From Halopiger djelfimassiliensis (GTDB taxonomy: Archaea > Halobacteriota > Halobacteria > Halobacteriales > Natrialbaceae): a stretch of 64,000 bases of DNA. Shown here piece after piece: positions 22,733 through 62,572 of this stretch. Location of the stretch: NCBI RefSeq assembly GCF_000455365.1, contig NZ_HG315686.1:181126-245125 (forward strand). Reading direction: 5' to 3'. Under the pieces are notes generated by a model that was given only the letters and a program-made list of their open reading frames with translations, was not told the origin of the DNA and did not search any database. The stretch's first letter is position 1. Each line of letters opens with the position of its first letter. Position numbers and translations under genes: made by a program.

Positions 22733-24319
22733 ATGACCGCTCGAGACGGTCCGTCCCTCCTTGCCCTCCCGCCGTCCGCGATCCGCGACCGGCCAGTCGC
22801 GACGCTCGAGGACGTCGACGAAACGCTCGAGCCGGATGCGGTCTGGGTGCTCGGTCCCTCGCGCGAGCCCCGGGCCTTCGCGAGGGCGCGCAACGCGTTC
22901 GACGCGCCGGCGTTTCACCCGCCGGTCGAGACCGGCTCCAGCGACGGTCCGCTCCGGCGACGAGCGATCGGCGACTACGAGGTTGCGATCTCGAGCGCGC
23001 GGACAATCCGGGCAGCACCGGGTGTGGTCTCGAGCGCGCTCGGCGGTTCCGCCGCCGACGTCGTCGCGTTCGTCTGCGACGACGTCGCGACGACCACGCG
23101 GCCGACGGCCCTCGAGACGACTCTCGAGGGAGCCGACGCACTCGCCGCGGCGCTGCCGACCGGTCGCGTCACGACCGTCCTGACAGGCGGCGAGCCGGCC
23201 GGCTACGACGAACTGTGGCACCTCGAGACCGATACCGGCGCGGTTCGACGCGTCGATCACGAGCCGGCGATCTCCTGCGAGCCGGCCGGCGACGACTGCG
23301 TCTCGGTCCGCGTGCAGGGAACCGGTCCCGTCGAGGGCTACGGGAGCGAGCAGTCGATCGCACTCCTCGTGATCGACGACGACGGGATCGGCGCGGAGAC
23401 GTACGACGTGACCGACTTCGGTCTCGAAGCGGTTTCGGGTATCGGCCCGAAGACGACACGGCGACTCGCCGAACGCGGCGTGACGACCCGCGAGGAACTG
23501 CTCGAGACGCCGGTCGGGACGCTCGCCGACCTGCCGAACGTGGGCCGCGCTCGCGCCCGCGAGATGCACCGGCACGCGAGGGTGCTCGAGACCGGCGACC
23601 CGCGGCGACTCACCGACGAGTCGCTGCCCGGCGGGGACTGGTCGACGCCCCCGCTGTGTCTCGACGTCGAGACCGACGGACTCTCGCCGACGATCATCTG
23701 GCAGATCGGCGTCTACGATCCCGCGACCGACGAGTACCGCGCGTTCGTCGAGCGCGACGATCCCGACGACCCGGCGTCGGTGCTCGAAGCGTTCTGTGAC
23801 TGGTTGCTCGGCATCCACCCGGACAGGGCCTTGCTGACGTGGAACGGCTGGCGGTTCGACTACCGGCATCTGGGAGCGTTCATCGCCAAGCACGTCCCCT
23901 ACTACGTCGGCGAGTGGGAGTCGATCCCCAAGTTCGACCTCTACCTGTGGGCCGTCCGGGACGGGAACGCCGTTCTGCCCGGACGGACGAACGAACTCGA
24001 CTCGGTCGCCGAGGCGCTCGGCTACGAGGACGCAGCAACGGGGCTGGACGGGGCGCGGACCGCGGCGGCCTACCAGCGGTTCATGCGGACGGGCGAGCAA
24101 CTCGAGTGGGGCCGCCACGAGGCCTATTGCGAGGACGACTGCCGGGCGCTGTGGCACGTTTACGAGCGGTTGCGGGACGCACCGCGGGCCGAGGGCGGGG
24201 ACGAACCGACGGGCGACTCGAGTCACACAGCCGCGACCGCGTCGGGTTCGAACGGCCGGGACGCGAGCGATGCGAGCACGACCGACGGCGAACAGACCGG
24301 ACTGGGTGATTTCCGATGA
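22733..24319 (+). CDS. YprB/MrfB-like 3'-5' exonuclease with helix-hairpin-helix
   Basis: A 528-residue protein. The N-terminal half is poorly characterised; a helix-hairpin-helix region (about 233-290) has AVSGIGPKTTRRLAERG and LADLPNVGRARARE; the C-terminal RNase H-like domain has CLDVETDGL (Asp311, Glu313), LTWNGWRFDYRHL and YCEDDCRALWHVY, the three DEDD exonuclease motifs. It overlaps the helicase gene by four bases (ATGA), so the two are co-translated. In Bacillus, YprB (MrfB) and YprA (MrfA) repair mitomycin C damage; the same pairing here suggests a DNA repair nuclease. The long acidic/serine tail is typical of haloarchaea. Confidence 0.85.
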   Translation: MTARDGPSLLALPPSAIRDRPVATLEDVDETLEPDAVWVLGPSREPRAFARARNAFDAPAFHPPVETGSSDGPLRRRAIGDYEVAISSARTIRAAPGVVSSALGGSAADVVAFVCDDVATTTRPTALETTLEGADALAAALPTGRVTTVLTGGEPAGYDELWHLETDTGAVRRVDHEPAISCEPAGDDCVSVRVQGTGPVEGYGSEQSIALLVIDDDGIGAETYDVTDFGLEAVSGIGPKTTRRLAERGVTTREELLETPVGTLADLPNVGRARAREMHRHARVLETGDPRRLTDESLPGGDWSTPPLCLDVETDGLSPTIIWQIGVYDPATDEYRAFVERDDPDDPASVLEAFCDWLLGIHPDRALLTWNGWRFDYRHLGAFIAKHVPYYVGEWESIPKFDLYLWAVRDGNAVLPGRTNELDSVAEALGYEDAATGLDGARTAAAYQRFMRTGEQLEWGRHEAYCEDDCRALWHVYERLRDAPRAEGGDEPTGDSSHTAATASGSNGRDASDASTTDGEQTGLGDFR

Positions 24320-32129: not shown

Positions 32130-32405
32130 CTATAGATCGACGTACTGCGATTCCCAGTCCCGGCGGGCCTCGAGTTCCCGACGGCCGCGCCGGGTAAGGG
32201 TATAGAAGTTCGTCCGTCGGTCGCGGCGCCCTTTCTCGATGAGTCCTTTGTCGACGAGGGTATCGAGGTTCGGATAGAGGCGGCCGTGATGGATCTCCTT
32301 TTCGTAGTACGCTTCCAGTTCCTCCTTGATCGCCAGTCCGTGGGGCTCCTCCTCACCAGCGATAACATACAGCAGGTCACGCTGGAATCCTGTCAGGTCG
32401 TACAT
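32130..32405 (-). CDS. PadR family transcriptional regulator
   Basis: A 91-residue winged-helix protein. It begins with LTGFQRDLLYVIAG, then GLAIKEELEAYYEKEIHHGRLYPNLDTLVDKGLIEK and NFYTLTRRGRRELEAR, the PadR domain from end to end. No C-terminal dimerisation extension is present, as in short haloarchaeal PadR proteins. A perfect inverted repeat sits just upstream of the start codon (32411-32427), between it and CTTATTAAAA at about 32440, so autoregulation is plausible. The regulated target is unknown; the DUF4010 gene downstream on the same strand is a candidate. Confidence 0.9.
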   Translation of the reverse strand: MYDLTGFQRDLLYVIAGEEEPHGLAIKEELEAYYEKEIHHGRLYPNLDTLVDKGLIEKGRRDRRTNFYTLTRRGRRELEARRDWESQYVDL

Positions 32406-32410
32406 TGGGA

Positions 32411-32427
32411 AAGTACCACTCGTACTT
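32411..32427. promoter_or_regulatory. Candidate PadR operator
   Basis: AAGTAC-CACTC-GTACTT is a perfect six-base inverted repeat with a five-base spacer. It lies between the AT-rich promoter element (about 32432-32448) and the PadR start at 32405, a position where a bound dimer would block transcription. Confidence 0.5.
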
Positions 32428-32683
32428 ACTGTCGAATTTTAATAAGGCTATCGGGTCGTTTCGATCTAAACTGGGTTATTACCGGCGAACGGGAGTTGTT
32501 TAGACCTGTTTCGAATGATAACTCCGATGACTGATTCGAGAGTGGAATACACATAATGGCCGACTCATGTTTACAGTCAGTTAAATTACTGTAGGGACGA
32601 TTATACCAGTGGCGAGCGTCGCCGCTGACGATCTGGCATCGAACTCGAAGCTATCGCTCAGAAGTGTTGAAACAGGAAAGCAA
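32428..32683. other. AT-rich spacer
   Basis: Contains the promoter side of the PadR gene and AT-rich sequence to about 32600. No open frame of haloarchaeal character is seen. Confidence 0.5.
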
Positions 32684-32770
32684 ATCGCGTGACGAGAAAA
32701 ACGTCACGCGATCGCTTGCCGCCCTGAATTGGTCCCCGCTGACGCTTCGGCCCTCCAAGCGAAGCGTCAC
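32684..32770 (-). ncRNA. Candidate structured small RNA with two perfect hairpins
   Basis: Two long perfect inverted repeats stand in a spacer that has no gene. TGACGCTTCG/CGAAGCGTCA (32740-32749 with 32760-32769) is a 10-base-pair stem with a 10-base loop. ATCGCGTGACG/CGTCACGCGAT (32684-32694 with 32702-32712) is an 11-base-pair stem with a seven-base A-rich (T-rich on the minus strand) loop, extended by AAGC/GCTT outside. On the minus strand CCTTTAAG (32800-32793) lies about 27 bases before 32770, exactly where the first stem starts. That suggests an independent transcript of about 90 bases, but a 3' structure of the upstream 48-residue gene is possible, and the strand is inferred. Confidence 0.45.
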
Positions 32771-32862
32771 CTGAAAGATTCCGCTGGGTGCACTTAAAGG
32801 TAACGACACAGGCCGGATTCGTGATACGTTCGCTGCAGGGAGTCGGTCCTCGTCGAAGCCGG

Positions 32863-33009
32863 TCAGATGTGCTCCTCTTCGAGTACCCAGCCGATCGCCC
32901 GCTTGTAGTAGGTGAACATCTCTTCGACGCCGTCGTGGCGCATTTCGTCGCTCTCGAGTTGCTCTTTGAGGAACTCGTACTGCTCGCGGATTTCTTCTTC
33001 CTCGCGCAT
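32863..33009 (-). CDS. Small acidic haloarchaeal protein of 48 residues
   Basis: A short gene starting MREEEEIREQYEFLKEQLE and ending GVEEMFTYYKRAIGWVLEEEHI. The mixture of charged helix residues and a conserved-looking aromatic/hydrophobic end (FTYYKRAIGWVL) suggests a helical hairpin rather than chance sequence. The longer in-frame extension (to 33264) is Arg/Ser-rich and unlike a haloarchaeal protein, so the ATG at 33009 is used. Function unknown. The candidate RNA begins 93 bases downstream on the same strand. Confidence 0.65.
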   Translation of the reverse strand: MREEEEIREQYEFLKEQLESDEMRHDGVEEMFTYYKRAIGWVLEEEHI

Positions 33010-33293: not shown

Positions 33294-33938
33294 TTAGTTG
33301 TCGGTCTCGTTGTCGGTCTCGTTGTCAGTCTCGTTGTCAGTCTCGTTGTCGGTCTCGTTGCCTTCCCCATCGCCCATTCCGTTTCCGCCGAGCGTCAGGG
33401 TGACTTCCTCGTCGGAGCCGGCGATCTCGACGTTATCTTCGGCCTCTTGGCCTTCGTGTTCGGCGGTCACGGTGTACTCGCCGTCCTCGAGATCCTCGAA
33501 CTCGACCTCGCCGTTTTCGTCGGTTTCGTCCTCCTGTGTCGTCCCGCCGTCTTCGGCCATCCCCTCGTCTTCGGTCTCGTTGTCTTCGGTCTCGTTGTCT
33601 TCCGTCTCGTTGTCTTCCGTCTCGTTGCCCATCCCCTCGTCTTCCATGCCGGTCCCGTCCGCTTCCTCGAGCGTGACCGTCGCTCCCTCGACGGGTTCAC
33701 CCGCATCGTCTTCGACGGTGACGGTCAGTGTGTACGTCTCGCCGTCGGCACCGGCCTCTTCGTCGGTCTCGTTGTCTTCGGTTTCGTTGTCTTCGGTTTC
33801 GTTGTCTTCGGTTGTGGGTTCTTCTTCTTCCTCCTCACCGTCGCCGGGACCACCGTCGGCACAGCCGGCCAGAACGAGTGCACTCGCTGTTCCCGCCGCA
33901 GCAACGAACGTTCGTCGGTTGAGTCGTGGGTGGGACAT
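33294..33938 (-). CDS. Tat lipoprotein with N-E-T sequon repeats and a Cna B-like domain
   Basis: A 214-residue predicted surface lipoprotein. NRRTFVAAAGTASALVLAGCADG combines a twin-arginine signal with a lipobox. Two copies of a carboxypeptidase-regulatory/Cna B-like fold follow: TLTVTVEDDAGEPVEGATVTLEE, then GEVEFEDLEDGEYTVTAEHEG. They are separated and flanked by low-complexity tracts that encode N-E-T 12 times (three, four and five), each an N-x-T glycosylation sequon. The DNA is a 12- or 15-base tandem repeat there, so copy number could change by slippage. Very acidic, likely heavily glycosylated and exposed. Function unknown. Confidence 0.78.
   Translation of the reverse strand: MSHPRLNRRTFVAAAGTASALVLAGCADGGPGDGEEEEEEPTTEDNETEDNETEDNETDEEAGADGETYTLTVTVEDDAGEPVEGATVTLEEADGTGMEDEGMGNETEDNETEDNETEDNETEDEGMAEDGGTTQEDETDENGEVEFEDLEDGEYTVTAEHEGQEAEDNVEIAGSDEEVTLTLGGNGMGDGEGNETDNETDNETDNETDNETDN
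33297..33811 (-). repeat. Three tandem-repeat tracts encoding N-E-T
   Basis: Tract 1 (33297-33359) is five 12-base units coding D-N-E-T-type repeats; tract 2 (33567-33626) is four 15-base units; tract 3 (33762-33811) is about three 15-base units. Units differ by one or two synonymous bases. All lie inside the lipoprotein gene and are in frame. Confidence 0.85.
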
Positions 33939-61947: not shown

Positions 61948-62374
61948 TCGGTCGGAACGGAGCGGATTCCGAACCGTCCTTCGGAGGCGGCCTGTCCGCC
62001 CACGAAACGAGGTAATATCCGAAAGGGCAGTCGGTGAACGCACATTCTAGAAGAGTGTGTCCGTGCTGACTGCTCAAAGCGAGCACCACGATACCCCCGA
62101 CTCTGCTGACGCCTGCTGGCGTCCCACTGGCAAAAACAACAGTGGGACGCCATACACGGTCGAAGAGAGGGGAAACGGCGGTTTGGCACCGCCAGCAGTC
62201 CCTCACACCGATACTGTGGGACTACCCGTGCCCGAAAGGTGTGGTAGTCCGGTGGTTGGACTGCAAACCTGAAACTCCCACCGCTGAGCGGAATCGAAGA
62301 TTCCACGATGCTCGGAAATCCCCGATTTCCGTCCGCTCGGGATTCCGCCGCGTTCACGCGGAGGAGGATGTCAA
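61948..62374 (+). mobile_element. Right-end remnant of an IS200/IS605 (IS1341-type) element with omega-RNA-like hairpins
   Basis: The block ends in CCGCGTTCACGCGGAGGAGG and ATGTCAA (to 62374), the right-end sequence I recognise from haloarchaeal IS1341-type elements. Before it are stacked hairpins: 12 base pairs (62117-62128 with 62141-62152), 6 (62177-62182/62188-62193), 8 (62219-62226/62243-62250), 6 (62290-62295/62299-62304), 8 (62313-62320/62324-62331) and 5 (62348-62352/62357-62361). A frame of about 70 codons from 62057 may be the tail of tnpB. The rest of tnpB and the left end are missing. In intact elements this region makes the TnpB guide RNA. Confidence 0.6.
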
Positions 62375-62497: not shown

Positions 62498-62499
62498 AA

Positions 62500-62572
62500 G
62501 CCAGGGGTGGGATTTGAACCCACGAAGTCTCGATTACAAGTCGAGTGCATGAACCGCCCATGCTCCCCTGGC
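62500..62572 (-). tRNA. tRNA-Thr (anticodon TGT)
   Basis: A 73-base cloverleaf on the minus strand. The acceptor stem GCCAGGG pairs fully with CCCTGGC; D stem GCAT/ATGC; anticodon stem CTCGA/TCGAG around CTTGTAA, giving anticodon TGT; T stem GTGGG/CCCAC around TTCAAAT. CCA is not encoded. Unusual for a tRNA, position 8 is G rather than T, the D loop starts with G instead of A14, and its last base is C instead of A21. All stems are perfect, so it is probably a real gene, but these core bases are nearly universal. Confidence 0.82.

Follow-up and report, generated by a model that had tools for sequence, protein, structure and literature searches.

A predicted small structured RNA with its own promoter, conserved across haloarchaea

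Described haloarchaeal RNAs and the locus studied here

Small RNAs of haloarchaea have been described as very fast-evolving, and according to the homology data of PMC3956466, 22 of the 27 H. volcanii sRNA genes of one set have no homologue elsewhere. H225.2R and hts10, two H. volcanii sRNAs, are listed in Table 5 of that work as occurring in 19 and 18 further haloarchaeal genomes, respectively, and its account of H225.2R states that deletion of this gene has phenotypes (PMC3956466). Like the RNA that we describe here, both are intergenic haloarchaeal sRNAs found in many genomes, as far as that table shows, and the present RNA could be one of them, a comparison that goes by description only. 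Anonymous sRNAs of Haloferax volcanii such as these two may already include it. In its layout the present RNA recalls sRNA132 of Haloferax, for which the description in PMC6560208 gives two stems, a single-stranded linker and its own promoter; however, sRNA132 is described there as limited to the genus Haloferax and has a pyrimidine-rich linker, whereas our RNA is class-wide and its linker is purine-rich. With rancRNA_s194 of H. volcanii, a ribosome-associated RNA (PMC6104027), it shares a similar size (s194 is about 97 nt long) and an intergenic position, but s194 has no homologues outside H. volcanii and shows runs of four to six C in its reads, while the frozen part of the present RNA has no such run. 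SRP RNA and RNase P RNA are also near-universal, mostly occur in one or two copies and are in part frozen and in part varying under pair constraint, but the present RNA, unlike them, has no Rfam match and is found in haloarchaea only. The 2010 H. volcanii genome paper names RNase P RNA and 7S RNA as the only single-copy ncRNAs, in addition to rRNA, tRNA and a single C/D RNA located within the intron of a tRNA.

A search of Rfam 15 returned no family at gathering score on our locus, with weak, chance-level matches below it, and the sole Rfam 15 match in the whole window (that is, the entire 64-kb stretch of DNA that was analysed) was a tRNA at 62499-62572. Since Rfam 15 lacks the RNA, annotation pipelines built on this database would overlook it. 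Six core strings gave no match in a full-text literature search, and in the running text so covered we recognised no published description of a class-wide conserved haloarchaeal ncRNA like this one. Identity with HVO_2908s, a vesicle sRNA (PMC10927574), is not favoured, since the gene that PMC2584109 names HVO_2906 has its homologue 43-44 kb from the padR-side copy of our RNA in three Haloferax genomes; no anchor for placing the copy was obtained from hisB. In H. volcanii, CdrS, which regulates cell division, binds upstream of the RNA HVO_1885s and of unannotated transcripts (PMC8406309, Table 1), and none of the RNAs of that table could be tied to the present one.

The locus lies in a gene-free spacer in which the initial annotation had placed two perfect stems of 11 and 10 bp, 27 bases apart. 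Both stems and their coordinates were borne out in the window sequence, and the feature is slightly larger than first stated, with the RNA at about 32668-32770 and promoter elements up to 32805. Its parts and neighbours are as follows.

32130-32405, minus strand: PadR-family regulator, the downstream neighbour (PF03551, 65 bits)
32406-32862: spacer between the PadR gene and the 48-aa ORF
32668-32770, minus strand: predicted ncRNA of about 100 nt, with approximate ends
32668-32675, minus strand: pyrimidine-rich tail UCCUGUUU, seen in alignments
32673-32726, minus strand: hairpin 2 with outer helices and a U-rich loop; its perfect 11-bp core, 32684-32712, is stem A (arms 32684-32694 and 32702-32712, 7-nt loop)
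32714-32730, minus strand: conserved but not frozen stretch AAUUCAGGGCGGCAAGC, whose 3' part pairs with downstream GCUU and CCUG
32731-32739, minus strand: invariant single-stranded linker GCGGGGACC, each of its nine positions being identical in 59/59 BLAST-found loci
32740-32769, minus strand: hairpin 1, or stem B (arms 32740-32749 and 32760-32769), with stem UGACGCUUCG/CGAAGCGUCA of 10 bp and the 10-nt loop CUUGGAGGGC
32793-32798, minus strand: TATA box TTTAAG, whose start lies 29 bases upstream of that of stem B
32800-32805, minus strand: BRE-like element CGTTAC, adjoining the TATA box, at -36 to -31 from the first base of hairpin 1
32863-33009, minus strand: conserved 48-aa protein, the upstream neighbour

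Read along the minus strand, the RNA thus consists of hairpin 1, the linker, the conserved but not frozen stretch, hairpin 2 and the pyrimidine-rich tail; the covariance model described below matches it at 32665-32769 with 126.6 bits. The 64-kb window holds only four perfect stems that have 10 bp or more and a loop of 3-12 nt, and two of the four are stems A and B. When the spacer was shuffled 3000 times with dinucleotides preserved, 14 shuffles held at least one such stem and none held two; as the initial annotation had supposed, the two-stem feature is therefore not a product of chance.

Promoter, strand and structural conservation

The TATA-like element that the initial annotation had noticed on the minus strand is present, the letters at 32800-32793 being CCTTTAAG, and its spacing to stem B is kept in all 166 loci compared. 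In 159 of them a motif of the form NTTA[AT]N begins at -29, and in every one it does so between -30 and -27. By the usual archaeal distance between TATA box and start, transcription would begin roughly where hairpin 1 does, and the predicted 5' end of the RNA would accordingly be near 32770, while its 3' end would fall within the U-rich tail, UCCUGUUU being a possible terminator. On the BRE side, C at -36 is found in 94%, G at -35 in 88% and A at -32 in 95% of the 166 loci; this element, CG(G/T)(T/C)A beside the TATA box, is unusually well kept class-wide. The locus therefore has a BRE/TATA promoter of its own, as is expected of an independent archaeal sRNA gene.

Read on the minus strand, the alignments hold 18 G-U pairs, and A-C or C-A cells, the form that G-U pairs on the plus strand would take, number 4. 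As the promoter is also on the minus strand, we conclude that the RNA is encoded there. An RNA on the plus strand was rejected on account of the minus-strand TATA box and of the same 18 versus 4 cells, despite the better fold z-score of the plus strand in the window (-5.1, in comparison to -3.7 for the minus strand). We also rejected a small protein, since loops differ in length by 1-2 nt and a conserved start is missing from two of the three minus-strand frames. In fact, the loop of stem B is 10 nt long in 130, 11 nt in 36 and 12 nt in 1 of 167 sequences, which would shift any frame and makes it unlikely that ORFs crossing the stems are coding.

The two hairpins are conserved in quite different ways. 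For hairpin 1, it has to be kept in mind that 119 records were collected by an exact 26-mer, so that identity within this 26-mer is there by construction; this also applies in part to the loop core UGGAGGGC, which is present in 167/167 sequences. We thus recounted on the 59 loci found by BLAST, which avoids the 26-mer bias (all 59 were required to hold a 14-nt string, and 59/59 did). Among the first 37 normalised columns, 35 are identical in 59/59 of these loci, and the other two in 54/59 and 58/59. Eight of the ten pairs of hairpin 1 are invariant among 61 distinct sequences, and no pair has a two-sided change. Its stem could drift by compensation, as that of hairpin 2 does, yet it did not, and we therefore think that something reads the letters of hairpin 1 themselves.

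Compensating base changes were looked for in relatives and are present in hairpin 2. A MAFFT alignment of 36 distinct sequences, made independently of the structure, shows two-sided changes in 10 of 15 inner pairs, with 66 two-sided cells, in comparison to a shuffle mean of 19.0 (a count reached in 0 of 500 shuffles) and to at most 6 in slid-partner controls. In the model-fitted alignment, whose 61 distinct sequences span many families, each of the 15 core pairs of hairpin 2 has two-sided changes, and the whole structure has 239 two-sided cells versus 55.1 after shuffling, figures to be read with the leaning of such an alignment to the structure in mind. Folding without any alignment gave z < -2 for 57 of 59 mutually divergent 3' regions (median -5.0); of the two regions that fell short, one folds worse than its own shuffles. 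The possibility that the structure is missing in relatives, also raised in the initial annotation, was checked, and the relatives carry it instead. As to the material, alignment A1 comprises 37 of the 59 BLAST-found loci, picked for an easily aligned 3' part, and alignment A3 comprises 61 loci and the window; L003, without a core match, and L002, a partial copy, were kept out of the alignments. RNAalifold favoured an alternative outer closure in which the linker pairs with the tail; this would be a modelled helix, for which we make no claim. Taken as comparative evidence, conservation, compensatory changes and a TATA box at a fixed distance strongly support the proposed two-hairpin ncRNA with its own promoter.

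Two hairpins in an archaeal RNA of about 100 nt bring a guide RNA to mind, and a likeness to H/ACA RNAs had been suggested for this locus. The likeness is not supported, however. The 10 bp of hairpin 1 form a perfect stem, closed by a loop of 10-12 nt, with no internal pseudouridylation pocket; in the window sequence neither hairpin is followed by an ANA motif, and ACA occurs anywhere in only 55 of 167 sequences. Published Haloferax H/ACA hairpins, moreover, are described in PMC2584109 as separated by a long spacer. As for C/D RNAs, the C box RUGAUGA is found in 0/167 sequences and the D box CTGA in 20/167. No Rfam guide family reached gathering score, and ungapped complementarity to the genome's own 16S and 23S rRNA is not strong, with runs of up to 11 nt (G-U allowed) being at chance level. 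We thus regard an H/ACA or C/D guide RNA as extremely improbable.

Distribution, copies and neighbouring genes

When spacer DNA was used as a query, 56 of 61 genomes had a match (the window's own 3.78-Mb genome included), as did 48 of the 50 of high quality; G037, G044, G046, G053 and G059 had none. The alignment of these spacers revealed an RNA-sized block kept across families, while the rest of the spacer is not. A covariance model built from 37 loci then matched 387 of the 391 class genomes; among the 377 with high quality, 375 had a match. The four class genomes with no match are G044, G046, G059 and G399, three of them from one family, and a model search in ten genomes (these four and six others) found no diverged copies at E up to 5; the RNA is thus dispensable in some lineages. 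In a sample of the phylum, 80 of 392 genomes matched, all 80 listed in the window's family or order. G046 was the one genome of that order in the sample without a match, and there was none in the 311 genomes outside it, under strict filters that could miss weak relatives.

Among the matches listed for the class, the RNA occurs once per genome in the window's family, whereas genomes of family f5 mostly have two copies and some have three or four. All five Haloferax genomes examined carry a second copy, with one copy in the usual place and one elsewhere. A mobile element is not supported, as viral_contigs and phages gave 0 exact core matches each and only partial matches were found, on two haloarchaeal plasmids. 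The window's genome also holds a partial copy of the core without the 5' arm (L220, G000:C3:496150-496271), which is located downstream of a gene and carries three tandem 28-bp repeats of GGAGGGTCGCAGCGTCAGCGGG; a similar 45-bp array is present in one relative (G020; L221 and L222).

The usual order, on one strand, is the 48-aa protein, the RNA and PadR. Among 167 loci, some of which are too short to show neighbours, PadR was found in 114, lying on the same strand in 111 of them, and tblastn found a relative of the 48-aa protein in 102, of which 101 have it on the same strand; 35 loci had none of five neighbour proteins. The 48-aa protein has no Pfam or NCBIfam match; it is possibly a partner of the RNA, or else merely an old neighbour. 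The PadR protein matches RosR of Halobacterium salinarum (hsRosR, 6qfd) with an E value of 1.9e-24 over 82 residues; by this sequence measure it resembles RosR, of which it need not be an orthologue.

Because padR lies downstream on the same strand in 111 of the 167 loci, and because hairpin 2 with the U-rich tail could terminate transcription, one might think of a cis-acting leader or attenuator of padR. However, the distance from the RNA to the padR match ranges from about 260 to 850 bases, the part that is frozen class-wide sits at the far 5' end, and further copies are found away from padR in Haloferax and others, so there is no fixed link to one downstream gene. The loci lacking padR and the second Haloferax copies elsewhere argue that the RNA is independent of padR in cis, and we judge a padR leader improbable. 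The frozen 10-bp inverted repeat adjoining a PadR-family gene also suggests another explanation, as a frozen stem could be read at the DNA level: the stem of hairpin 1 would then be a palindromic operator for the RosR-like PadR protein at the transcription start, and the names of PDB entries 6qfd and 6qua indicate that hsRosR relatives bind DNA. But the palindrome is no more frozen than the loop and the linker, which is asymmetric, compensation in hairpin 2 needs an RNA, and the copies far from padR keep everything. A DNA operator thus seems to us a distinctly poor prospect. Finally, 27 loci with ample flank have neither of the usual close neighbours, the 48-aa protein and PadR, and these, together with the second copy in 5/5 Haloferax genomes, point to action in trans.

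Possible roles of the frozen 5' module

We consider it probable that the minus strand of the locus holds an independent gene for a structured, trans-acting ncRNA of about 100 nt, and that a partner which does not itself vary reads the frozen 5' module of this RNA. The sequence comparisons make a strong case for the ncRNA family as such, but a weak one for any mechanism. In the reading that we favour, the 5' hairpin with its loop UGGAGGGC, together with the linker GCGGGGACC, would be the working module, in which the letters themselves matter, while the 3' hairpin, including the U-rich loop, would form with the tail a structural module, probably stabilising and terminating the RNA, for which shape alone matters. 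The frozen module would most likely be recognised by an unchanging partner, most simply a conserved protein with which it would form an RNP, and the G-rich loop and linker might then be exposed to C-rich RNA targets. An invariant protein would be the simplest reader of hairpin 1, with base pairing to an invariant RNA as its main rival, and the two are compatible.

That rival can be put in a stronger form, in which the RNA is a base-pairing regulatory sRNA whose seeds UGGAGGGC and GCGGGGACC would pair with C-rich mRNA sites or with the CCUCC of the 16S rRNA 3' end, and which would need no dedicated protein. Both frozen single-stranded stretches are G-rich seeds, and the 16S rRNA of the window's genome ends with ACCTCC, with which the GGAGG of the loop can pair over 5 bp; this is suggestive, no more, as the fit to the 16S tail is limited to these 5 bp. 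Seeds alone, however, leave both frozen arms of the 10-bp stem unexplained, and H. volcanii is reported to make no use of the Shine-Dalgarno mechanism. Searches in rRNA and mRNA gave no target. The longest ungapped complementary runs, with G-U allowed, were 11 nt in the genome's own 16S rRNA and 10 nt in 23S rRNA, which is the chance level. Besides the RNA gene, an 11-mer complementary to the linker occurs once in the window's genome (G000), once in G002 and twice in G003, in unrelated contexts, and no conserved mRNA site emerged from this small and weak test of six genomes. A base-pairing sRNA of this kind is conceivable, though we would not bet on it. We would be somewhat more hesitant still to see in the predicted RNA a class-defining haloarchaeal housekeeping RNA, whose frozen 5' module in an RNP would offer its Shine-Dalgarno-like GGAGGG loop to the translation machinery or to another invariant RNA; this we hold to be rather unlikely.

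That a structured RNA is kept in 387 of the 391 class genomes, with 37 columns of it practically frozen, contrasts with the fast evolution described for haloarchaeal sRNAs and points to a central function. The RNA is short, mostly has a single copy per genome in the window's family and also occurs in genera that are amenable to genetics, so its role is directly testable.

Some other features of the window deserve mention in their own right. At 62117-62152 a 13-bp perfect stem stands amid further inverted repeats, about 350 bases from the tRNA gene, and this region could be the end of a mobile element. A 12-bp perfect stem at 23056-23087 is located in apparent coding sequence. At 33294-33938 there is a predicted lipoprotein-like protein with a run of ETDN repeats at its C-terminus.
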